From Pseudoflavonifractor sp. Marseille-P3106 (lineage in GTDB: Bacteria > Bacillota > Clostridia > Oscillospirales > Oscillospiraceae): a stretch of 41,378 nt of DNA. The stretch's first letter is position 1. Each line of letters begins with the position of its first letter. Shown here piece after piece: positions 8,401 through 19,178 of this stretch. The position numbers and the translations under genes were made by a program. The notes under the pieces are model-generated. The model made no database searches. It was given only the letters and a program-made list of their open reading frames with translations, and was not told where the DNA came from. The stretch covers positions 1-41,378 of the forward strand of contig LT827107.1 of the NCBI GenBank assembly GCA_900169975.1, given 5' to 3'.

Positions 8401-8982
8401 TCAGGCCGTTTTAGGTCCAGCCCCCATCATGCGGATCAGGGAATCTCCCCGTTCCAGCCTCGCCCACAGCAGGTCTCTGCACTGACGAAACTGACGAAAC
8501 CTTCTCCGGGCCCCTTCCGCGTCGTGATAAACCTTCCAGCAGCCGCAGAGCCGGCATCCCCTACCGCCGGGGTCATTCAAGAAGCCCTCCACATCCTCCG
8601 GAGGGTAACCCAGAAAAAGGCCGATCTCGTGCGGAAACTCCTCGGCCGTCTCCATTCGCTCCATAAGCCGTCCCAGCAGGCGGGGCAGCGGTTCCCCCAC
8701 CGGATACCCGGCCCTGTGCAGAATGGCACAGGCCGCCGGACACTCCAGGGCCCGCGCCAGGGGCTCCTCCCGGTAGACCAACAAAAGACGGCGGCGGCCA
8801 CAGCGGCACAGAGGCAAAAAGCGCAGGCCATTTCCAGCCAGCAAAACATTGTATTTTCCCGCCATCTCGGGCAGCATTCCCCCATTCTCCATCGTCAGAG
8901 AGAGCAGCCCCGCCGCCTTCAGTCCCACCAAAACAGGCGCACAGTGCCAAACCAGCGCCCGCTCAAAGTCCGTCTGCCGCAT
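8401..8982 (-). CDS. DUF3793 family protein
   Basis: A 193-residue protein recognised as DUF3793, a family of unknown biochemical function often located near ferrous-iron transport (feo) genes and flavodoxins in Clostridia. Several CxxC-like or paired cysteines are visible (CRCGRR, CRLCGCW), so metal binding is conceivable. No feo gene occurs here. It begins at ATG 8982 behind AAAAGGAGGG and is the first gene of a two-gene unit with the flavodoxin. Confidence 0.78.
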   Translation of the reverse strand: MRQTDFERALVWHCAPVLVGLKAAGLLSLTMENGGMLPEMAGKYNVLLAGNGLRFLPLCRCGRRRLLLVYREEPLARALECPAACAILHRAGYPVGEPLPRLLGRLMERMETAEEFPHEIGLFLGYPPEDVEGFLNDPGGRGCRLCGCWKVYHDAEGARRRFRQFRQCRDLLWARLERGDSLIRMMGAGPKTA

Positions 8983-8999
8983 TGCTCCACCCTCCTTTT

Positions 9000-9017
9000 A
9001 GTTAGCTAAGACTAACT
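9000..9017. promoter_or_regulatory. Dyad 1 (AGTTAG-N6-CTAACT) before the DUF3793 start
   Basis: Perfect 6-bp inverted arms at 9000-9005 and 9012-9017, located 18 nt before the DUF3793 start codon. The same 18-bp design occurs at 9067-9084. The arms resemble DtxR/IdeR-type sites (TTAGG...CCTAA family), which suggests metal control. This is inference. Confidence 0.5.
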
Positions 9018-9024
9018 CATTTTT

Positions 9025-9052
9025 AAAAAAACGGGCTCCTCGGCGGGAGCCG
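9025..9052 (-). terminator. Intrinsic terminator inside the DUF3793-flavodoxin leader
   Basis: On the minus strand GGCTCC (9051-9046) pairs with GGAGCC (9039-9034) and is followed by CG and seven U (9031-9025). It stands between the promoter at 9094-9122 and the DUF3793 start at 8982, so full-length mRNA must read through it. It faces away from the plus-strand operon and cannot serve that. Confidence 0.7.
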
Positions 9053-9060
9053 TATTTCAG

Positions 9061-9090
9061 TGCAGGAGTTAGTTATTGCTAACTCCTGCA
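9061..9090. promoter_or_regulatory. Dyad 2, 12-bp arms over the transcription start
   Basis: TGCAGGAGTTAG (9061-9072) and CTAACTCCTGCA (9079-9090) are perfect inverted arms around TTATTG. The inner 18 bp repeat dyad 1 exactly in its arms. The site covers the predicted start (about 9087) of the minus-strand promoter, where a bound repressor would block initiation. In RNA it would also form the first hairpin of the leader. Confidence 0.6.
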
Positions 9091-9093
9091 CAA

Positions 9094-9122
9094 AAGATAC
9101 CACAGCCAGCTTCTTTTGTCAA
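9094..9122 (-). promoter_or_regulatory. SigA promoter for DUF3793-flavodoxin
   Basis: The -35 TTGACA (9117-9122), a 17-nt spacer and the -10 TATCTT (9094-9099) give a good promoter pointing to the DUF3793 gene. The leader is about 105 nt and contains dyad 2, the terminator and dyad 1. Confidence 0.7.
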
Positions 9123-9177
9123 GCCGTATTTTTTCCTGTCCTTCTCATTTTTCTACACTGATCCGTGGGGGAAAGTC

Positions 9178-9206
9178 TGGACAATGAACATACGGCATGT
9201 TAAAAT
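9178..9206 (+). promoter_or_regulatory. Promoter of the LuxC/LuxE-type operon
   Basis: TGGACA (9178-9183), a 17-nt spacer and TAAAAT (9201-9206) precede the first gene of the operon by about 37 nt. It is the only promoter-like match seen before the seven genes that run to 15812, consistent with a single transcript. Confidence 0.6.
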
Positions 9207-9242
9207 GATACTAAACTCTGCGTATGGTAGGTGTTTGATATC

Positions 9243-9965
9243 ATGTCCGAAAAGCCTCAGATCGGTGTGCGCTACTGCGGCGGCTGCAACCCCCGCTACG
9301 ACCGGGTCTCTCTGGTCAAACGGCTCCAGGCCTCTCTGCCTGATCTGGAATTCGTTCCGGCGGAAGACGGCGTCCCCTACGCCGCGGCCCTCATTGCCAA
9401 CGGCTGCACCAATCGGTGCACTACTGTCTCCGGGCTTGCGGTGCCGGAGGCCCGGCAGGTGGCCCTGTCCGGGGATATCGACTTTTTCCCCGCGCAGGAG
9501 AAACTGAAGGATCTGGTGTTTGGCGGCGAGGTCCGGAGTTTGACCCACGAAGAGGTACTGGGAGTTCTGCCCCACCGCCCTCCCATGCTGCTGATCGACA
9601 CGGCCAGCCGGCTGGTCCCCGGACGGGAAGCGGCAGCCTCTCTCTACGTCGATCCTCAGTGGGATATTTTCCGCGGCCATTTCCCCGACCATCCGGTACT
9701 TCCCGGAGTCTATGCCCTGGAGGCCATGGCCCAGTGCGCCGACCTGCTGCTTCTCTCCGCAGAGCAGTACGCCGGGAAAGCGCCTCTCCTGGCCGGGAGC
9801 GACAAGGTCAGCTTCCGCCGCCCCATCGCCCCGGGAGACACCGTGGAGCTCCACGCCAGCCTGCTCAGTGAGCGGCCGGAATTCGGCATGGCCGTCTGCA
9901 AGGGCCGCGCCTTTGTGGGCGACGCCCTGTGCGCCGAGGCCGAGATCACGCTGGCCCTGCGGTAA
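9243..9965 (+). CDS. FabZ-like hydroxyacyl-ACP dehydratase fused to a Cys-rich N-terminal domain
   Basis: A 240-residue two-domain protein. Residues about 100-240 are a hot-dog-fold FabZ: LPHRPPMLLID carries the catalytic His111, GHFPDHPVLPG follows, and Glu160 lies in LEAMAQ. FabZ removes water from 3-hydroxyacyl-ACP. Ordinary FabZ has about 145 residues. The extra N-terminal part (5-85) starts IGVRYCGGCNPRYDR and has Cys12, Cys15, Cys55 and Cys59, suggesting a metal or Fe-S site; its function is unknown. ATG 9243 follows GGTAGGTG; an in-frame GTG at 9231 is less likely. First gene of the acyl-reduction operon, followed 73 nt later by the carrier protein. Confidence 0.82.
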   Translation: MSEKPQIGVRYCGGCNPRYDRVSLVKRLQASLPDLEFVPAEDGVPYAAALIANGCTNRCTTVSGLAVPEARQVALSGDIDFFPAQEKLKDLVFGGEVRSLTHEEVLGVLPHRPPMLLIDTASRLVPGREAAASLYVDPQWDIFRGHFPDHPVLPGVYALEAMAQCADLLLLSAEQYAGKAPLLAGSDKVSFRRPIAPGDTVELHASLLSERPEFGMAVCKGRAFVGDALCAEAEITLALR

Positions 9966-10038
9966 CGAAAACAGCGACCATCCGGGAGAACATTTCTCCC
10001 TTTGGAAATGAAAAGGATTATTGAAGGAGGACCCCCCC

Positions 10039-10275
10039 ATGAGCAATTTAGAGAAATATGACAAACTTTTTCTGAGCAGCTTTCGTGTCAAGCCCGAAGA
10101 TCTCCCCACCCTGACCTACCGCGGCATCCCGGCCTGGGATTCCGTAGGACATATGGAGTTCATGAGTGAAATGGAAGAGACTTTTAAAATCAGCCTGAGC
10201 ACCCTGGATGTGCTGGACTTCTCCTCCTATGAGAAGGGCAAGGAGATCCTTGCCAAATACGGCGTGACGCTGTAA
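10039..10275 (+). CDS. Dedicated acyl carrier protein
   Basis: A 78-residue acidic carrier protein. The phosphopantetheine site is Ser35 in WDSVGHMEF, matching the DSxGHxE pattern of specialised carriers rather than the DSLD of fatty-acid AcpP. This points to a pathway separate from bulk fatty-acid synthesis. ATG 10039 lies 8 nt after GAAGGAGG (10023-10030). It is located among enzymes that activate and reduce acyl groups, so it probably holds the substrate as a thioester. No phosphopantetheinyl transferase gene is nearby, so the house enzyme would have to modify it. Confidence 0.88.
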   Translation: MSNLEKYDKLFLSSFRVKPEDLPTLTYRGIPAWDSVGHMEFMSEMEETFKISLSTLDVLDFSSYEKGKEILAKYGVTL

Positions 10276-10280
10276 TTTCC

Positions 10281-10937
10281 ATGATGGACATCCTGCGCTG
10301 GACCGATCCCCTTGCCGAGGGCAACTGCTACGTCTGCGCCGAAGGGGACAGGGCGGTGGTCATTGATCCCTGTCATCCCGAAGGCCCCGCTTCTCTTTTG
10401 GAGGAGCGGGGTCTTGTCCCGGAATGGATCCTCCTCACCCATGAGCACTGCGATCACATGCTGGGCCTGGAGCCCCTGCGGCACAAATATCCCGAAGCCA
10501 TCGTTCTCTGCTCCGCTCCCTGCGATGCCGGGATGCAGAACAAGTACCTCAACATGTCCGCCATGATGGAGGTCTACCTGACCTTCAAGGGCAAACCGGG
10601 CGCACACTACCCTCCGCTGGTCTGCTCCCCGGCGGATCAGACCTTTGCGGAAGAACACACCATGACTTGGCGGGGGCACACCCTCCGGCTCACCCCCCTG
10701 CCCGGCCACACGCCGGGCAGTACTTGTATCCTTCTGGACAGGGACACCCTTTTTACCGGCGACTACCTCATCCCCGGCGAGGCAGTCATCACCCGCCTGC
10801 CCGGCGGGAACACCGAGATCTACGAGCGCGTGGCCAGGCCCTGGCTGTCTGCCCTGCCGCCGGGGCTGCGCATCTGCCCCGGGCACGGCGAACCCTATGC
10901 ACTCACTCAGGAGGTGAAAGATACCTATGGACTATGA
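10281..10937 (+). CDS. Metallo-beta-lactamase-fold hydrolase
   Basis: A 218-residue cytoplasmic protein with the complete di-metal motif set: THEHCDH (His54, His56, Asp58, His59), GHTPGS (His143), TGDY (Asp161) and PGHGE (His202). It resembles glyoxalase II-like thioester hydrolases. In this operon an acyl-thioesterase that frees or proofreads the carrier-bound acyl chain is the most natural guess, but the sequence does not fix the substrate. It begins 5 nt after the carrier gene with no clear ribosome site, suggesting coupled translation, and overlaps the next gene by 11 nt. Confidence 0.85.
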   Translation: MMDILRWTDPLAEGNCYVCAEGDRAVVIDPCHPEGPASLLEERGLVPEWILLTHEHCDHMLGLEPLRHKYPEAIVLCSAPCDAGMQNKYLNMSAMMEVYLTFKGKPGAHYPPLVCSPADQTFAEEHTMTWRGHTLRLTPLPGHTPGSTCILLDRDTLFTGDYLIPGEAVITRLPGGNTEIYERVARPWLSALPPGLRICPGHGEPYALTQEVKDTYGL

Positions 10938-11997
10938 CACCCTGCTCACCAAAGAGCCCTTTTCCCTCTCCCGGGCGGAGAAGCGGACCGTCTTTTCCGA
11001 CGGTCTCACCGAATTGACCCGCTATCACCGGGAGCACTGCCCGCCCTACGCTGCCCTGCTGGATCGGCTGGGCGTGCCTGACGGCCCTCTGGCTCCTGAG
11101 GACGTCCCCTTCCTGCCGGTCTCGGTCTTTAAGGATCTGGAGCTCAAAAGTGTACCGGACGGCCAAGTCTTTAAGACCATCACTTCCTCCGGCACCACCG
11201 GCCAGCGGGTCTCCCGGATCTTTCTGGACGCCGGAACCTCTGCCAACCAGCAGAAGACCCTCTTCCGCATCACCTCCGCGCTGGTGGGCAATGACCGGCT
11301 CCCCATGCTGGTCATCGACTCCAAAAAGGTGCTTCGGGACCGGGCCATGTTCTCCGCCCGGGGTGCGGGCATCCTGGGCTTCTCCATCTTCGGATCCCCC
11401 ATGCGCTACGCCCTCAACAACGACATGGAACTGGATCTGGAGGCTGTGGAGGCCTTTCTGGAGCAGTACCGGGGCCGGAAGATCCTGCTCTTCGGTTTCA
11501 CCTTCATGATCTGGAGGCACTTCTGTCAGGCTCTCCGGGAAAAGGGGATCACCCTGGACTTTGGGGACAGCGTTCTCATTCACGGCGGCGGCTGGAAAAA
11601 ACTCGTCAATGAAGCGGTCTCACCGGAGGAGTTCAACCAGACCCTCCGGGAGGTGGCGGGCATTCGCCAGGTGGCCGACTACTACGGCATGGCGGAACAG
11701 ACCGGCTGCATTTACCTGGAGTGCCCCCAGGGCCACCTCCACGCCAGTGCCTATTCCGACGTTCTCTTTCGCCGCCCCGCCGACCACGGGCTCTGCACCG
11801 TGGGAGAACCCGGCGTCATTCAGGTTCTCTCGCTCCTGCCCCGCTCCTACCCGGGCCACTCCCTGCTCACTGAAGACATGGGAGTTCTCCTGGGGGAGGA
11901 TGACTGTCCCTGCGGCTGGAAGGGGAAGTATTTCTCCATCACCGGCCGCATTCCAAAAGCTGAGGTAAGGGGGTGCAGTGATACTTATGGAGGCTGA
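10927..11997 (+). CDS. LuxE-type acyl-protein synthetase
   Basis: A 356-residue member of the LuxE family, which activates a carboxylic acid with ATP as acyl-AMP and moves the acyl group to its own C-terminal cysteine for reduction by LuxC. Visible features: the P-loop-like TSSGTTGQR, ADYYGMAEQTG, the GRIPKAE motif and, very near the end, Cys350 in RGCSDTYGG, the position of the acylated cysteine in luminous bacteria. There is no luxAB or luxD here. It overlaps both neighbours (11 and 20 nt), so hydrolase, LuxE and LuxC are tightly coupled. Confidence 0.9.
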   Translation: MDYDTLLTKEPFSLSRAEKRTVFSDGLTELTRYHREHCPPYAALLDRLGVPDGPLAPEDVPFLPVSVFKDLELKSVPDGQVFKTITSSGTTGQRVSRIFLDAGTSANQQKTLFRITSALVGNDRLPMLVIDSKKVLRDRAMFSARGAGILGFSIFGSPMRYALNNDMELDLEAVEAFLEQYRGRKILLFGFTFMIWRHFCQALREKGITLDFGDSVLIHGGGWKKLVNEAVSPEEFNQTLREVAGIRQVADYYGMAEQTGCIYLECPQGHLHASAYSDVLFRRPADHGLCTVGEPGVIQVLSLLPRSYPGHSLLTEDMGVLLGEDDCPCGWKGKYFSITGRIPKAEVRGCSDTYGG

Positions 11998-13174
11998 TAC
12001 GCTGCGGGTTCTGGCCGGTTCCGCCCACCCGGAGGCCGCCCCCTGGCCGGTCTTTGACCCCCGGGTGCTGGATTTTCTTTCTGATCTCTCCACCGCACTG
12101 CGCGCTTCCCCCCTGGGAACCGACGCAGAGGCCGTCTCCTTCGCCTTTTGGTGCCGCCGTTCCCGGCTGGAGGCCCTGAAAAAACAGTATGAGGGTCCGA
12201 TCCGCCTGGGCCGGGGCCTGCTCTTCCACATTCCCCCCGCCAACGTCCCCCTGCTCTTCGCCTACTCTCTGGCGGTGGGGATGCTCGCCGGATGCGCCAA
12301 CCTGCTGCGGATGTCCTCCCGGCTGGAGGAGCGGGGGCGGATGTTCTGCGCCGTGCTGGACGAGGTGCTCTCCCGCCCCAAACACGCCGCGCTGAAGGCC
12401 CGCACCGGGCTCATTTCCTACCCCCGGGAGGAGGAGGACCGCACCGCCGCCCTTCTCTTGGAGTGCGACGGCCGGGTGGTCTGGGGCGGCGACGCCACCG
12501 TGGAGGCCATGCGCCGGTTTCCCGCCCGTCCCGGCGGGGTGGAACTGGTCTTTCCCGACCGCTGGTCCCTGTGCCTCATGAGCGAGGCCCATGTGGCCGC
12601 CCTCTCCGCATCCGAGTTGGAGCTGCTGGCCCACCGGTTCTACAACGACACCTACCTCATGGATCAAAACGCCTGCTCCAGCCCCCGGTTGGTGCTGTGG
12701 GAGCAGGACTGCCCGGACGGCGCTTCCGCCCGTGATCGCTTCTGGGCCGCGCTCTGCCGGAAGGCAGAGGATACCTACGAGCTGACCCCCTACAAAGCGG
12801 CCCGGAAATATGAGGCCCTCTGCGAACTGGCCATGACCGAACCCGCTCTGGGTCCCGTCCGCCGGGAGGGGAACCTGCTCTATCGGGTGTCCCTCACCGC
12901 CCCCCCCGCCGACCCCGATGCCCTTCACCTGGCTTTCGGCTCCTTCCTGGAATATGAGATCACGTCTCTGGGGGAGCTTTCCGCCTTTGTCACCCGACGA
13001 ACCCAGACTCTGACCTGCGCCGGGATCGCCCCGGATGAAGCGGCCCGGACTGTGGCGGCTCTGGGTCTGCCCGGGATCGACCGGGCGGTCCCCGTGGGGC
13101 AGGCCATGGAGTTCGACGTGGTATGGGACGGAAAAGACCTGATTGCCTCCCTCTCCCGGGTCATCCGCTGCTGA
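11978..13174 (+). CDS. LuxC-type acyl-CoA/acyl-enzyme reductase
   Basis: A 398-residue LuxC family protein, a relative of aldehyde dehydrogenases that uses NAD(P)H to reduce an acyl thioester to an aldehyde. The catalytic cysteine is Cys233 in LMDQNACSSP, matching the LuxC active site. HIPPANVPLLFAYSLA (84-99) and LLRMSSR follow the family pattern. The length is somewhat below the roughly 480 residues of Vibrio LuxC. The start is the GTG at 11978 just after GAGGTAAGGGGG; ATG 11987 is an alternative. Paired with LuxE it forms the core of a fatty-acid-reductase-like complex without luciferase. Confidence 0.9.
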   Translation: MILMEADTLRVLAGSAHPEAAPWPVFDPRVLDFLSDLSTALRASPLGTDAEAVSFAFWCRRSRLEALKKQYEGPIRLGRGLLFHIPPANVPLLFAYSLAVGMLAGCANLLRMSSRLEERGRMFCAVLDEVLSRPKHAALKARTGLISYPREEEDRTAALLLECDGRVVWGGDATVEAMRRFPARPGGVELVFPDRWSLCLMSEAHVAALSASELELLAHRFYNDTYLMDQNACSSPRLVLWEQDCPDGASARDRFWAALCRKAEDTYELTPYKAARKYEALCELAMTEPALGPVRREGNLLYRVSLTAPPADPDALHLAFGSFLEYEITSLGELSAFVTRRTQTLTCAGIAPDEAARTVAALGLPGIDRAVPVGQAMEFDVVWDGKDLIASLSRVIRC

Positions 13175-13249
13175 CCCTCTCTATCCTGAACCTTCAAAAC
13201 AGGCAAACACGCCGACTGCTGTGCGCCATGAGAAAAAGGAGTGACTGAA

Positions 13250-14683
13250 ATGGCACTGTTTACCGCCGAATCCGGCTGGGCCGGGCGGACTCTGTGTATC
13301 TCCGACAGCGGTCTCACCCTCACCTACGGAGACCTGGACACCTTTGCGGACCGCTTTGCCGCCGGTGTGGGCGAGCGCTCCCTGGGCTTCCTCCTGTGTG
13401 AAAACATTCCCGGCGTTCTGATGGCCTATCTCTCCTGCCTGCGCTGCGGCGCAGTGCCGCTGCTGCTGGCCGCAGACATTGACCCCGCCCTTCTCTCCCA
13501 GCTCGTGGAGACCTACTCCCCCGCCTGGGTCTTCCGCCCTGACGCCCTCCCGGCGGAGACCTCCGCCGCCCTCGGCTCCACCGAACCCCTGCTGGCGGAA
13601 TACGGCTGCACTCTGGAGCGCCGGATCGGCGCAGTCTCTCCTGCGCTCCACCCCGACCTGGCCATCCTCCTCACCACCTCCGGCTCCACGGGAAGCCCCA
13701 AGCTGGTGCGGCAGAGTCGGGCCAACATTGAAGCCAATGCCCGCTCCATTGTGGAGTACCTGGAGCTGAACGAGACTGAGCGCCCCATCACCACCCTTCC
13801 CATGAACTATACCTATGGTCTGTCGGTGATCCAGAGCCACGCCCTTGTGGGCGCAACGATCCTGCTCACCACCCGCGGTGTGCTGGAGGGCGACTTCTGG
13901 CGCTTCTTCCTGAAAGAAGGGGCCACCTCCCTGGCGGGGGTCCCCTATACCTACAAAATGTTCCACCGCCTGCGCCTGCCCACCATGGATTTGCCCACCC
14001 TGCGCTATCTCACCCAGGCGGGAGGCAAGCTCCCCGAGGAGCTCCACGAGACATTTGCCCGCTGGTGTGCCGAGAGCCGACGCCGGTTCTACGTCATGTA
14101 TGGGCAGTGTGAAGCCACTGCCCGTATGGGGTACCTGCCTTACGCCCGCTCTGTGGAAAAACGGGGCAGCATGGGCATTGCCATCCCCGGCGGCTCCTTC
14201 ACTCTGGAGGACGACGACGGCCAAGAGGTACCCGAGGGCGCCGTGGGCGAACTCATCTACCGGGGAGCCAACGTCACTCTGGGATACGCCACCTGCGCCG
14301 CCGACCTGGCCAAGGCCGACGAATGGCACGGTGTGCTCCGCACCGGCGACATGGCCCGCCGGGATGACGACGGCTATTATTACATCGTGGGCCGGAAAAA
14401 GCGCTTCATCAAGATCTTTGGCAACCGGGTGGGACTGGACGAATCCGAACGGCTGCTGGCCGCCCGCTTCCCGGAGGCAGAGTTTGCCTGTACCGGTCGG
14501 GACGATCTCATGACCATCTTCACCGACGGCAGGGACCCCGCCCTCCCTCAGGCCGCCGTGGACTATCTCTCCGGGGTGACCCGGCTCTCCCACACCGCCT
14601 TCTCTGTAACAGTGGTGGATGCCATCCCAAAGAACGATGCGGGAAAGACCCTCTATATCAAGCTCACGCCCAAGGAGGGATAA
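13250..14683 (+). CDS. AMP-dependent acyl-CoA/acyl-ACP ligase
   Basis: A 477-residue ANL-superfamily adenylating enzyme. Core motifs in order: TSGSTGSPK (143-151, ATP phosphate loop), YGQCEAT (284-290), RTGD (364-367), hinge GRKKRFIK (381-388) and catalytic Lys466 in PKNDAGKTLY. It activates a carboxylic acid as acyl-AMP and transfers it to CoA or to a carrier protein; the nearby carrier is the likely acceptor, but this is inferred. ATG 13250 follows AAAAAGGAG by 8 nt; the in-frame GTG 13241 overlaps that site. The 75-nt gap before it is the largest break within the operon's second half. Confidence 0.9.
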   Translation: MALFTAESGWAGRTLCISDSGLTLTYGDLDTFADRFAAGVGERSLGFLLCENIPGVLMAYLSCLRCGAVPLLLAADIDPALLSQLVETYSPAWVFRPDALPAETSAALGSTEPLLAEYGCTLERRIGAVSPALHPDLAILLTTSGSTGSPKLVRQSRANIEANARSIVEYLELNETERPITTLPMNYTYGLSVIQSHALVGATILLTTRGVLEGDFWRFFLKEGATSLAGVPYTYKMFHRLRLPTMDLPTLRYLTQAGGKLPEELHETFARWCAESRRRFYVMYGQCEATARMGYLPYARSVEKRGSMGIAIPGGSFTLEDDDGQEVPEGAVGELIYRGANVTLGYATCAADLAKADEWHGVLRTGDMARRDDDGYYYIVGRKKRFIKIFGNRVGLDESERLLAARFPEAEFACTGRDDLMTIFTDGRDPALPQAAVDYLSGVTRLSHTAFSVTVVDAIPKNDAGKTLYIKLTPKEG

Positions 14684-14684
14684 C

Positions 14685-15812
14685 ATGATCGGCTTTACCC
14701 ACTACTTCCCCACAAAGCTGCTCTTCGGCGAAGGCCAGCTCCGGCGGCTGGGCCGTCAGACGCTCCCCGGCAAGCGCGCCCTGCTGGTAACCACCAAGGG
14801 ACAGTCCCGACGGGGCGATGCCCTGCCGGAAACTCTGGCCCAACTGGAAAAAGCAGGGGTGACCGTCTCGATTTTTGATGCCGTCTCCCCCAACCCTACC
14901 GCCGCCCAGGCCTCCGCCGCCGCAGAGCAGCTCAAGGCCGAAGGCTGTGACTTTCTGGTGGCGCTGGGCGGCGGAAGCTGCATCGACACCGCCAAAGCCG
15001 CGGGACTCCTCGCAGTCAACGGCGGTGTCTGGAGCGACTACGTCGGCGGAAAGAGCTTCCCTGGGCCGGGCCTCCCGGTCGTCGCCATTCCCACCACCGC
15101 CGGCTCCGGCTCCGAGGTCAGCCCTTGGGCTGTGGTCACCGATGAAGCCACCGGGATCAAAGCTGGGCTGGGGCGGCAGGACGGAGCTCCCGTCCTGGCC
15201 GTAGTGGATCCCTCCCTCACCGTCTCTCTCCCGCCCCGGCAGACTGCTTTCCAGGGCTTCGACGCCCTGTTCCACGCCATCGAGACCGTCATCAACCGGG
15301 GCGGCAACCCCATGGCCGAGATGTACGCCCTGAAGGCCGTGGCGCTTCTGGCTCAGGGCCTGCCCCATGCGGTGGCGGACGGAGCCGATCCGGAGGCCCG
15401 GGCTCAGGTCTCTCTCGGAGCCGTCCTGGCGGGCTGTGCCATGCGCTCCTGCTCTGCCCACGCTCTGGAGCATGCGTTGAGCGGACACCACCCTTCCCTT
15501 CCTCACGGAGCCGGTCTGCTGGCTCTGGCCCTGCCCTACTACCAGCACTTCGCCGACTGCCATGCCTGTGACGACGCCTTTGCAAAGCTGGACACCGCCC
15601 TGGATCGCGGCCATTTCCCCAAGGCGCTGGGACGGCTGATGGATCAGTGCGGGATGGGAGCAATCAAGCTCAGCGACTACGGTGTGACCTTGGAGGAACT
15701 CCCCTCACTGGCTGCGGAAGCCCGGCAGACCGCCCCCATCCTCTTCTTCAACGATCCCGTTTCCCTGACGGAGGAGGAGACCGTGGCGATCTTGCAGGCA
15801 GCCTATCGCTGA
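14685..15812 (+). CDS. Iron-containing (group III) alcohol dehydrogenase
   Basis: A 375-residue NAD(P)-dependent enzyme that interconverts aldehydes and alcohols. It has GGGSCIDTAK (95-104), TTAGSGSE (137-144) and the four metal ligands Asp193, His197, His263 and His274 at the usual spacing. It starts 1 nt after the ligase stop codon behind AAGGAGG. In this operon it would reduce the aldehyde made by LuxC to an alcohol, or run in reverse. Ends with a strong terminator at 15830-15875. Confidence 0.92.
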   Translation: MIGFTHYFPTKLLFGEGQLRRLGRQTLPGKRALLVTTKGQSRRGDALPETLAQLEKAGVTVSIFDAVSPNPTAAQASAAAEQLKAEGCDFLVALGGGSCIDTAKAAGLLAVNGGVWSDYVGGKSFPGPGLPVVAIPTTAGSGSEVSPWAVVTDEATGIKAGLGRQDGAPVLAVVDPSLTVSLPPRQTAFQGFDALFHAIETVINRGGNPMAEMYALKAVALLAQGLPHAVADGADPEARAQVSLGAVLAGCAMRSCSAHALEHALSGHHPSLPHGAGLLALALPYYQHFADCHACDDAFAKLDTALDRGHFPKALGRLMDQCGMGAIKLSDYGVTLEELPSLAAEARQTAPILFFNDPVSLTEEETVAILQAAYR

Positions 15813-15829
15813 TCTTCCCTTTCAAGCCG

Positions 15830-15875
15830 CGGCATCCTCACCCTCTTTTAGAGAGAGGATGCCGATTCTTTTCAT
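15830..15875 (+). terminator. Terminator of the acyl-reduction operon
   Basis: CGGCATCCTC (15830-15839) pairs with GAGGATGCCG (15855-15864), with an inner CTC/GAG extension. ATTCTTTTC follows. It defines the 3' end of the seven-gene unit. Confidence 0.75.
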
Positions 15876-15903
15876 CTTATTATTGACATATGCCAATAAT
15901 AAG
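15876..15903. promoter_or_regulatory. 28-bp palindrome over the -35 of the NifX-like gene
   Basis: CTTATTATTG (15876-15885) and CAATAATAAG (15894-15903) are perfect arms around ACATATGC, so the core reads TTGACATATGCCAA, itself nearly symmetrical. It covers the -35 TTGACA (15883-15888). A protein bound here would block RNA polymerase, which makes it a strong operator candidate; which regulator binds is unknown. Confidence 0.6.
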
Positions 15904-15911
15904 ATTAGAAT
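15883..15911 (+). promoter_or_regulatory. Promoter of the NifX-like gene
   Basis: TTGACA (15883-15888), a 17-nt spacer and TAGAAT (15906-15911) form a near-consensus SigA promoter 26 nt before the start codon. It is embedded in the 28-bp palindrome. Confidence 0.75.
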
Positions 15912-15937
15912 AGATTCATAAAAAGGAGGCGCTTTCC

Positions 15938-16342
15938 ATGAAAATTGCGGTAACTTATGAAAATAGCCAGGTGTTCCAGCACTTTGGCCATTGCGGACAG
16001 TTTAAACTGTATAAGATTGAAAACGGGGCGGTCCAGTCGGCGCAGGTCGTGGACACCATGGGCAGCGGCCACGGGGCCCTGGCCGGTTTTCTGGTCGGGC
16101 ACGGCGTGGACACCCTGATCTGCGGCGGGATCGGCGGAGGCGCACGGACGGCTTTGGCCGAGGCCGGTATCCGCCTGTATCCCGGCGTATCCGGAGATGC
16201 CGACGCCGCGGTGACAGCGCTGTTGAGCGATTCCCTGATTTTTGATCCGGATACTGTCTGCGCCCACCACCACGAGGGCGGACACACCTGCAGCGACCAT
16301 GCCTGCCACGAGGATAAGGCAGGCTGTTCCGGAAACCACTGA
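15938..16342 (+). CDS. NifX/NifB-type iron-molybdenum cofactor domain protein
   Basis: A 134-residue protein of the dinitrogenase iron-molybdenum cofactor family. The fold spans residues 1-100 (MKIAVTYENSQVFQHFGHC at the start, GGIGGGARTAL in the middle). The last 28 residues are rich in His and Cys (CAHHHEGGHTC, CSDHACHEDKAGC), a likely metal-binding tail. Members without nitrogenase are common in anaerobes and are thought to handle Fe-S or metal cofactors. A DUF134 regulator gene, a regular companion, is convergent downstream. ATG 15938 follows AAAAAGGAGG. Confidence 0.88.
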   Translation: MKIAVTYENSQVFQHFGHCGQFKLYKIENGAVQSAQVVDTMGSGHGALAGFLVGHGVDTLICGGIGGGARTALAEAGIRLYPGVSGDADAAVTALLSDSLIFDPDTVCAHHHEGGHTCSDHACHEDKAGCSGNH

Positions 16343-16349
16343 TCTCCCA

Positions 16350-16395
16350 AAAAGCCGACGGCGGGAAGTGCATGCACTTCCCGCCGTCGGCTTTT
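16350..16395. terminator. Bidirectional terminator between NifX-like and DUF134 genes
   Basis: A perfect 46-bp palindrome: AAAAGCCGACGGCGGGAAG... mirrored to end in GGCTTTT on both strands. It can stop both convergent transcripts. Confidence 0.85.
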
Positions 16396-16420
16396 GACCG
16401 TTTGTTTGAAACCGGGGCAC

Positions 16421-16765
16421 TCAGATCCCTTCCCCCCGGCGGCAGCATTTCTTTCCCGGGCACTGTCTCCCCTTGGGGCAGATCTGGTACACCCCGCCCT
16501 CTACCCGCAGGCGCTTCCCCTCCACCAGGGCGGCGGCCAGCTTTTTCCGGGCCGCCTCATACATATTTTGGATGGTCGCCCGAGAAACTTCCATTCCCGC
16601 TGCCGCCTCCTCCTGAGACAGCCCCAGATAATCGATCAGTCGGATGGCCTCATACTCGTCCACGCGCAGCTCGATATACTCATCCCCGAGCATCCTGCCG
16701 GCGGGAATGAATTCCCGAAACTCGGGCATCGCGCATACCCGCCTGCATTTCACCGGACGTGCCAT
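16421..16765 (-). CDS. DUF134 family DNA-binding protein
   Basis: A 114-residue probable transcription regulator. The centre contains a sigma-region-4-like helix-turn-helix (LGLSQEEAAAGMEVSRATIQ), and cysteines at both ends (VKCRRVC near the start, CPKGRQCPGKKCC at the end) suggest metal or Fe-S sensing. The family commonly sits with NifX/NifB-like genes, as it does here, so it may bind the palindrome at 15876-15903; this is inference. ATG 16765 (MARPVKC) is chosen because AGGTGG lies 8 nt upstream. Confidence 0.85.
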   Translation of the reverse strand: MARPVKCRRVCAMPEFREFIPAGRMLGDEYIELRVDEYEAIRLIDYLGLSQEEAAAGMEVSRATIQNMYEAARKKLAAALVEGKRLRVEGGVYQICPKGRQCPGKKCCRRGEGI

Positions 16766-16791
16766 CTTCCTCACCACCTGGTTTTTTCTCC

Positions 16792-17457: not shown

Positions 17458-18836
17458 TTATCGATTCTGAGGAATGTCCGGCAGCGAGTCAAACCCCTTT
17501 TGCAGCTCCTCGTCGGTGGGCACATGATCGGTCATTCTGCCATCCAGATAGGCCGCATAGGCCGTCATGTCAAAGTATCCGGTCTCGGTCAGACCGAAGA
17601 GGATGGTCTTGGCCTCACCTGTCTCCCTGCACTTGAGGGCCTCGTCCATCGCGCCCTTGATGGCGTGGGCCGACTCCGGGGCGGGCAGAATGGTCTCCAG
17701 CTTGGCAAACTGCACCGCCGCCTCAAATACCTCGGTCTGCTTATCACTCACCGCCTCCATATAACCCTCGTGATAGAGCTTGGAGAGAATGGGGCTCATG
17801 CCGTGGCAGCGAAGGCCCCGGCGTGATTGGCGGAGGGGATGAACCCGGCGCCCAAAGTATACATCCGCGCCATGGGGGTGACTTTTCCCGTGTCGCAGAA
17901 ATCATAGGCGTAACGCCCTCTGGTCAGCGAGGGACAGGAGGCAGGCTCTACGGCCACAAACCGGGCCCCTGTATGCTTTCCCGTGAGCTTATCCCGCATG
18001 AAGGGCGCGATCAGGCCGCCCAGATTGGAGCCGCCGCCCGCGCAGCCCACCACAATGTCAGGGTACTCCCCCAGCTGCTCCATGGTGGTTTCGCTCTCCA
18101 AACCGATGATAGACTGATGGAGCAGCACCTGATTGAGCACCGAGCCCAACACATACCGGCTGTTTGGATGGGACACAGCCGACTCCACCGCCTCGGAAAT
18201 GGCGCAGCCCAGGCTGCCGGTGGTCTCGGGATCCATCGCCAGGATCTTCTTTCCCACCTCGGTGGTCATGGAGGGAGACGGGGTCACCCGGCCGCCAAAG
18301 ACCCGCATCACGTCTTTGCGGAAGGGCTTTTGCTCATAGGAGCACTTGACCATGAACACATCCAGGCCGGGGCCGAAAGAGGAACATACCTCGCTCAGGG
18401 CCGTGCCCCACTGGCCGGCGCCGGTCTCCATGGTGAGCCGGGCGATCCCCTGGGTCCTGGCATAATAGGCCTGGGCCACGGCGGAGTTGAGCTTGTGGGA
18501 GCCGGAGGTGTTGTTGCCCTCAAATTTGTAGTAGAGCTTGGCGGGTGTGCCCAGCGCCCTCTCCAAATGATAGGCCCGGACCAGAGGAGAGGGCCGGTAC
18601 ATCTTGTAGACCTCCCGGATCTCCTCCGGGATCTCCACAAACTCGGTGCTTCCATCCATCTCCTGATGGGCCAGCGCCTCACAGAAAATAGGATAGAGTT
18701 CCTCCTCCTTCACCGGCTGGAGGATACCCGGGTTGAGCATGGGATCCGGCTGCTCCGGCATGGCGGAACGGAGATTGAAATAGTGTGTGGGGATCTGATC
18801 CTCGCTCAGGTACAGGCGATGCGGAATGGTTTTCAT
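17458..18836 (-). pseudogene. TrpB2-like PLP enzyme, interrupted by one missing base
   Basis: The gene encodes a PLP-dependent TrpB-like enzyme of the TrpB2 type, which joins indole and serine to make tryptophan. The reading frame starts at ATG 18836 (MKTIPHRLYL) and contains the PLP lysine in TSGSHKLNSA. It stops early after SANHAGAFAATA, at 17796. The missing C-terminal part (MSPILSKLYHEGYMEAVS onward) continues in the next frame to 17458. Adding one G to the four-G run at 17816-17819 (CCCC on the plus strand) restores HAGGLRCHGMSP, the family pattern, and a protein of about 459 residues. This is a real frameshift or a homopolymer sequencing error. The Trp T-box, promoter and terminator are intact, which favours error or a recent mutation. 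Confidence 0.87.
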
Positions 18837-18883
18837 ATCAAATGCTCCCTTTCTCGTTGAGATGGGTTTGAGAAAAGGGGTGC

Positions 18884-19178
18884 AAAAAAAGCCCCTGTAT
18901 CCCAAACAATTTCTGTTTTGGGACAAAGGACTTGCCTCTGCGGTACCACCCAAATTGACGTCCCGCGACGCCCACTCGTCTCCACACATCCATCGAATGT
19001 GCGCTCCCCTGATAACGGGCGGAGTCCCCGTCTGACTACTCGGTCACCCTTTCGCCCTCGCCCTCGGAAGCCCATTCCCTGCACCGTTTCCTGCCGCGAT
19101 CCCACCGCCCGCGGCTCTCTGAAAGAAAACATCTGTCCGGGTACTCCACTTCGTCATCGGTTTTTCCCTTTGAAATTG
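18884..19178 (-). promoter_or_regulatory. Tryptophan T-box leader
   Basis: The RNA between promoter 19184-19212 and the TrpB-like gene is a T-box riboswitch. The conserved T-box GGGTGGTACCGC lies at 18951-18940, and the stem I region carries the AGAGAG element and the GAGTA motif. A TGG (Trp) codon followed by a purine occurs in GAATGGGC (19074-19072) and is the best specifier. Terminator: CCCAAA(A)CA pairs with TGTTTGGG and GUCCUU with AGGGGC, followed by seven U (18890-18884). Uncharged tRNA-Trp would favour the antiterminator and switch the gene on. Confidence 0.88.

Follow-up and report, generated by a model that had tools for sequence, protein, structure and literature searches.

What does an operon with genes for LuxC- and LuxE-family proteins do in Pseudoflavonifractor sp. 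Marseille-P3106? This question is raised by the DNA analysed here, positions 1-41,378 of the forward strand of contig LT827107.1 (assembly GCA_900169975.1); the whole stretch is referred to as the window, and the genome of the strain as G000. A preliminary description of the window had listed seven genes, and all of them were found on the + strand in the order given there: CGGC-FabZ, carrier, metallo-hydrolase, LuxE, LuxC, AMP ligase and iron-type alcohol dehydrogenase. It is probable that this operon represents the acyl-carrier and acyl-reductase arm of the 4-hydroxybutyrate (AbfD) fermentation pathway, which in this genus is separated from the module carrying AbfD. AbfD, 4-hydroxybutyryl-CoA dehydratase, is the key enzyme and serves as a marker of the pathway leading from gamma-aminobutyrate (GABA), succinate or 4-hydroxybutyrate to butyrate. 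The protein families, the catalytic residues, the AbfD-linked clade and the CGGC-AbfD neighbourhood are shown by sequence comparison.

Titled genome contigs were scanned with a LuxC alignment, which yielded 168 relatives, and the best 80 loci were kept; together with the window and the family locus L008 they form a set of 82 loci, which does not include the distant loci L009 and L010. One of the two motifs used in the scan surrounds the active cysteine, so that the invariance of this residue in the scanned loci is partly selected. In a maximum likelihood tree of LuxC (83 rows), the window and every AbfD-linked locus fell into one clade of 31 loci (support 100/99), named clade A, and L022, located on a cut contig, was placed inside it by the tree. 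Neighbouring genes were counted as matches above 40 bits to hidden Markov models, again without L009 and L010, and the families were checked by Pfam on example members (one each for the classes outside the clade). AbfD occurred in the flanks of 24 of the 31 clade-A loci, a NifU-like gene also in 24 and a CoA-transferase in 23, whereas none of the three was present at the 51 other loci. Transketolase halves (25/51) and a FabH-like gene (19/51) were found only outside the clade, and SDR genes were counted at 33 of the 51 loci in comparison to 4 of the 31. At 36 of the 51 loci at least one of these last three was present, and at 15 none. The four-gene cassette of carrier, LuxE, LuxC and AMP ligase is widespread, all four genes being counted in 28 of the 31 clade-A loci and 39 of the 51 others, numbers which are affected by several cut contigs. 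Because the neighbouring genes are divided in this way between clade A and the other loci, the cassette serves at least two settings, glycan-type loci and AbfD operons. Neither a glycosyltransferase nor an SDR nor a transketolase is encoded among the seven genes of the window.

The order of the seven genes, whose conservation had been left open in the preliminary description, is kept in Oscillospiraceae bacterium CE91-St43 (L007/L011), another species of the genus. Since the seven genes of the window and of L011 are 76-87% identical at dN/dS values of 0.10-0.26 (purifying selection), the operon is not a chance arrangement. The order is also kept in Flavonifractor, where genes of the AbfD pathway are added and the dehydrogenase is moved or replaced; the run there is permease, AbfD, NifU, CGGC-FabZ, dehydrogenase, CoA-transferase, carrier, hydrolase, LuxE, LuxC and ligase. 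Four of the seven clade-A loci without a nearby AbfD (L012, L021, L022, L049) begin where a contig ends or close to that point, and the other three, those of the window, CE91-St43 and T. vincentii, belong to genomes with AbfD elsewhere. The genome of CE91-St43 is closed; its AbfD is 95% identical to that of G000 and is separated from the cassette by about 265 kb. In T. vincentii (AbfD 84% identical to that of G000) the genes for LuxE, hydrolase, carrier, transferase, CGGC-FabZ, NifU and a permease face those for AbfD, an iron dehydrogenase and a second permease. The LuxC gene is at a distance of about 15 kb, and the two stretches examined showed no ligase.

In G000 itself, AbfD is encoded on another contig (C18) together with a sigma-54 activator, a permease, a NifU-like protein and a CoA-transferase; AbfD, NifU-like protein and CoA-transferase are not found at the operon's own locus. 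This AbfD matches the solved dehydratase/isomerase of gamma-aminobutyrate metabolism (1u8v) with an E-value of 2.6e-240, and the adjoining CoA-transferase matches 4-hydroxybutyrate CoA-transferases. The combination resembles the pathway of the Clostridium aminobutyricum type from 4-aminobutyrate or succinate to butyrate; in relatives these genes are found at the same locus as the cassette. The pathway of this type is not known to include a carrier, LuxE, LuxC or AMP ligase. Pathways from succinate and 4-hydroxybutyrate to butyrate are described for Butyricimonas and Odoribacter in PMC6069880, and expression of AbfD by Megasphaera in the chicken caecum is reported in PMC11204068.

A further link to AbfD is provided by the first protein of the operon. 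The "FabZ-like fusion" noted earlier is indeed a fusion and could be resolved into a CGGC domain and a FabZ hotdog domain; in other lineages the CGGC domain is fused to a MaoC hotdog. The CGGC and GC...C motifs are invariant in the N-terminal part of this family, and the window copy keeps four of the five cysteines, the first cysteine of the second motif being Asn. Among 84 loci searched, CGGC was found in 26 of the 31 clade-A loci and in none elsewhere. It was missing from five clade-A loci: three of them (L012, L021, L049) are cut, in T. vincentii CGGC is encoded near AbfD, and L037 has the hotdog alone. In a phylum sample of 398 genomes, CGGC was detected in 25 genomes at 29 loci, and AbfD was present in the fetched flank at 26 of them, two of which (L167, L169) are clade-A loci; CGGC loci without AbfD in the flank were the window, L194 and the short L195. 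Because the CGGC domain is otherwise a neighbour of AbfD and G000 contains a single match (E<=1e-5), the link to AbfD survives the separation on two contigs. The domain was modelled with confidence (pLDDT 86), and the best match among solved folds had an E-value of 0.07, with none below 0.001. Judging from its neighbourhood, it is probably a helper of AbfD, for example for the Fe-S cluster, or docks the hydratase to AbfD. Short separate CGGC proteins without a Pfam match adjoin AbfD across the phylum (L170-L193) and are candidates for an AbfD maturation factor. The reading frame of the match L184 in genome G412 contains one TGA codon, which might encode selenocysteine or indicate a broken frame.

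Sigma-54-type sites were counted at 10 or more of 12 matches. Four of six divergent clade-A loci (L026, L041, L045, L073) have such sites before both halves, 54-114 bases before AbfD and before NifU (in L026, 271 bases before CGGC); the divergent loci L053 and L071 have a site on one side only. In four Flavonifractor loci the site lies about 103-105 bases before the permease of the joint operon, and the permease-AbfD operon of G000 is preceded by a site with 11 of 12 matches. As a control, none of 300 random 400-base stretches of the window reached 10 matches, and the whole window contains two sites of at least 10, both on the minus strand; the one at 9912 falls within the FabZ gene. In L026, L041, L053, L210 and L213 the next gene after the ligase is rpoN-like (checked by Pfam in L026 only). 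According to PMC12316311, COG2368, which includes AbfD, is sigma-54-regulated mainly in Clostridia.

Several observations weigh against an assignment of the operon to the AbfD pathway. The two halves are split in G000, and no sigma-54-type site was found before the window operon (+ strand, 8900-9300), so that no sign of co-regulation by sigma-54 was seen in this species; likewise, no such site was found upstream of the joint operons L017, L018 and L019 and of the Lacrimispora-type loci. AbfD does not depend on the cassette, as LuxC gave no match in 23 of the 28 genomes of the family sample that have AbfD, and in the clade-A genome G033 (80% complete) no AbfD was seen. The cassette is also rare in the samples. 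LuxC matches, with G000 counted, were obtained in 6 of 60 relatives, two of them (G005, G014) only distantly related, and the close form within the genus in only 2 of 16 genomes (G000, G010). In the family and the phylum, 7 of 250 and 5 of 398 genomes had a match. By their neighbours, two of the seven family genomes (G027, G251) are of the glycan type, G251 having AbfD on another contig as well; three of the five phylum genomes belong to clade A, all with AbfD, and the remaining two (G292, G355) neither belong to it nor have AbfD nearby. Relatives have other sources of succinic semialdehyde, namely a SucD-like gene (matching the solved 8cei with 1e-140) beside the cassette in 10 clade-A loci and, in Megasphaera L041, a gene resembling GABA transaminase (503 bits, cut-off 676) that occurs with an iron dehydrogenase; neither source is clear in G000, which gave no SucD-like match and only a partial aminotransferase match. 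Finally, the use of ATP by both LuxE and the ligase would be odd for a fermentation.

The last point would be avoided if the operon ran in the oxidative direction, with the dehydrogenase and LuxC oxidising an alcohol or aldehyde to a thioester and LuxE or the ligase returning the acid, perhaps with formation of ATP from AMP and PPi. This would fit the energy metabolism of a fermentation better, and LuxC is a member of the aldehyde dehydrogenase superfamily. Such a scheme would have no use, however, for a separate thioesterase or for a ligase that loads acids, and LuxC and LuxE run reductively in luminous bacteria; we therefore consider this direction highly unlikely.

Pfam matches above the curated cut-off were obtained for six of the seven proteins, and the carrier, below the cut-off (PP-binding 0.012), is supported by a weak match of its profile to solved acyl carrier proteins (best 7e-4) and by the serine of its DSxGH motif. 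The CGGC-FabZ gene (9243..9965, +, alternative start GTG 9231) encodes the CGGC domain, which takes up about residues 1-90, and joined to it a FabZ-type 3-hydroxyacyl dehydratase/hydratase (FabA 6.8e-20) with His146 and Glu160 present. The acyl carrier protein (10039..10275, +) has Ser35 in WDSVGHM, and a carrier-sized open reading frame (ORF) with [WF]DSx[GA]H is present in 27 of the 31 loci of clade A. It is followed by a hydrolase with metallo-beta-lactamase fold and HxHxDH motif (10281..10937, +; Lactamase_B 2.2e-18), a probable thioesterase. LuxE (10927..11997, +; 2.1e-47) and LuxC (11987..13174, +; 4.2e-22; alternative start GTG 11978) belong to the acyl-protein synthetases and acyl reductases, respectively. 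Their catalytic cysteines, Cys350 of LuxE and Cys233 of LuxC (GTG numbering), align with a cysteine near the end of the solved LuxE and with a cysteine of the solved LuxC in the LuxC-LuxE complex 7xc6, to which the similarity is remote (LuxE 2e-24, LuxC 3e-6). The AMP-forming acyl ligase (13250..14683, +; AMP-binding 1.7e-45; alternative start GTG 13241) is the probable loader of the carrier. The iron-type alcohol dehydrogenase (14685..15812, +; Fe-ADH 9.1e-49) is most similar, among solved proteins, to methanol, alcohol and 1,3-propanediol dehydrogenases. All catalytic residues named earlier are thus present, including Asp193, His197, His263 and His274 of the dehydrogenase; as the third metal ligand we take His259 to be more likely from the spacing in FucO.

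The preliminary description had framed the genes by one promoter and one terminator, and candidates for both flank them. A sigma-70-like site (TGGACA-17-TAAAAT with a TG before the -10 element; 9178..9206, +) matches the consensus at 10 of 12 positions, which is weak evidence, as three such sites occur in the stretch and 1.2 are expected; a terminator-like hairpin (15830..15864, +) has a free energy of -22.2 kcal/mol and a z-score of -4.6. Of the three gene overlaps of 11-20 nt claimed before, two are real, hydrolase/LuxE with 11 nt and LuxE/LuxC with 20 nt (GTG 11978) or 11 nt (ATG 11987). The third, between ligase and dehydrogenase, was an artefact of a start set too early and is gone with the ATG at 14685, which is preceded by the ribosome site AGGAGG. 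Rfam gave no match within 8900-16000.

It had also been stated that luxA, luxB, luxD and a ketosynthase are missing and that the acid has to come from elsewhere; accordingly, no luciferase, luxD family member or ketosynthase is encoded by the seven genes. The operon shares the LuxE and LuxC families with aligned cysteines with LuxCDE of luminous bacteria and differs from it by an additional carrier, ligase, FabZ-type enzyme and dehydrogenase. From this family resemblance it might be supposed that a luciferase-free LuxCE forms long-chain fatty aldehydes or alcohols for wax, ether or plasmalogen lipids, and a lipid alcohol had indeed been suggested as a product. It is not favoured here, because the clade is tied to AbfD operons and AbfD is present in the same genome on another contig; the small signalling aldehyde suggested beside it is still conceivable. 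Furthermore, LuxE reached 73 bits against the long-chain LuxE model with a cut-off of 550, LuxC matched no NCBIfam model at E<=0.01, and there is no lipid gene among the seven. On the basis of model scores and gene context the formation of long-chain aldehydes or plasmalogens was rejected as very improbable, and roles in long-chain lipid synthesis and luminescence are not supported.

The conversion of an acid to an aldehyde and an alcohol, as proposed before, is the natural reading of an operon that combines a LuxC/LuxE acyl reductase with a carrier of its own. We infer the order and direction of the steps from the protein families. The AMP ligase would load a short acid onto the carrier, the FabZ-type domain would hydrate or dehydrate the carrier-bound acyl group, and the metallo-hydrolase would free the acid. 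LuxE may then re-activate the acid with ATP on Cys350, and LuxC would take over the acyl group on Cys233 and reduce it with NAD(P)H to the aldehyde, which the iron dehydrogenase would reduce to the alcohol. Since a FabZ or a MaoC domain occupies one and the same place, a 3-hydroxyacyl/2-enoyl step is suggested, and intermediates of this type could also arise outside the clade, at the loci that have FabH-like and SDR genes. The variation of the succinic semialdehyde sources among the loci points to a substrate that either comes after 4-hydroxybutyrate or runs parallel to it. The favoured, though tentative, candidate is therefore a C4 acyl group of the AbfD pathway, for instance crotonyl or (R)-3-hydroxybutyryl. 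A more specific scheme is an undescribed carrier-bound branch of 4-hydroxybutyrate fermentation, in which the AbfD product is hydrated by the CGGC-linked hotdog to (R)-3-hydroxybutyryl and converted by LuxE/LuxC to 3-hydroxybutanal and further to 1,3-butanediol in gut and oral anaerobes (Flavonifractor, Lacrimispora, Megasphaera, Anaerostipes, Treponema); in the glycan cassettes, this aldehyde would be formed through FabH/FabG and extended by transketolase; this scheme appears rather doubtful.

Instead, LuxE and LuxC together with ligase and carrier might reduce succinate to succinic semialdehyde in place of the CoA-dependent SucD, and an alcohol dehydrogenase would then provide 4-hydroxybutyrate. 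Thereby the substrate needed by AbfD would be supplied, and no SucD-like match at E<=1e-20 was found in 6 of 11 clade-A genomes (G000, G010, G186, G284, G286, G287). On the other hand, succinyl groups would leave the FabZ/MaoC domain without a task, and G000 has another iron dehydrogenase (C20:135058-136173, L230), which is 59% identical to the Lacrimispora enzyme encoded between SucD and AbfD. Both the route as such and succinate as the acid of the cassette are therefore unlikely. A replacement of SucD as the sole role was lowered, as SucD-like genes coexist with the cassette in the 10 clade-A loci mentioned above. The window dehydrogenase, only 25-28% identical to the dehydrogenases adjoining AbfD in Lacrimispora-type loci, was likewise lowered as the 4-hydroxybutyrate dehydrogenase of the pathway, the closer relative of the AbfD-linked enzymes being encoded on C20. 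From their place, the AbfD-linked enzymes may be 4-hydroxybutyrate dehydrogenases; all NCBIfam models, including the one for this enzyme, scored far below the cut-off. L230 lies next to a permease paralogue and a sigma-54 activator in divergent orientation, and it may be a third part of this pathway.

The ligase pocket gave no reading of the substrate. The ANL motifs are kept across clade A, and because the conserved ligase residues hardly differ between clade A and the other loci, the acid may be the same in both. The best NCBIfam match of the window ligase was the exosortase A-associated acyl-CoA ligase (TIGR03098, 1.1e-49), far below the cut-off (169 bits, cut-off 592), and no exosortase is present among the seven genes.

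The cassette is already annotated in flagellin glycosylation islands, where genes for ACP, FabG, AMP synthetase, LuxE and LuxC are reported for Aeromonas group II (PMC7874193) and Enterobacteriaceae (PMC4875605). By annotation, these islands share the four-gene core with the window; the cassettes stand there in a glycan setting, and their role was guessed to be the addition of a liposugar. A lead only for a cassette product is the 102 Da glycan moiety described for A. piscicola (PMC7874193). In analogy to these sister cassettes, the operon might form a short aldehyde or alcohol in small amounts, to serve as building block or signal, for which the AbfD pathway would supply only the precursor. 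The SDR, transketolase and FabH-like genes at loci outside the clade and the nearly identical conserved ligase residues are in line with this. However, no glycosyltransferase or FabH is encoded among the seven genes, and the cassettes of relatives are integrated into AbfD operons, some of which also carry butyrate-pathway genes, so that such a role seems improbable, about as much as the succinate route. Unlike the islands, the clade of the window has genes of the AbfD pathway and the CGGC-hotdog fusion and lacks transketolase and FabH. No paper joining LuxC/LuxE with the AbfD pathway, and none with the cassette beside AbfD, was found in the literature search, the coverage of which was incomplete and does not prove absence.

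Some further genes were observed. A second, distant LuxE-like gene is present in G000 (C14:73859-74905, L209, E 4e-35), and L009 and L010, from two genomes of the same genus, encode a different LuxE/LuxC-like pair (26-27% LuxE identity) of another LuxE system. Downstream of the operon (15938-16777), a protein with a dinitrogenase-cofactor domain and a further gene are encoded, to which L007 has matches with 80% and 71% identity. At 17458-18989 (-), the gene of a TrpB-like pyridoxal phosphate enzyme is interrupted near 17796-17799; its two ORFs differ in frame and match successive parts of the model PRK12391, which indicates a frameshift, either of the genome itself or of the sequence as determined.

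If the operon is an arm of the AbfD pathway, it would represent an unrecognised metabolite or entry route in the butyrate formation of common gut genera, and the formation of butyrate from GABA, succinate and 4-hydroxybutyrate is of interest for gut ecology. The LuxE/LuxC cassettes of glycan loci, until now guessed to be lipid genes, would gain a testable short-chain hypothesis. The small CGGC protein, which lies nearly always beside AbfD, is a candidate maturation factor for this Fe-S/flavin enzyme.

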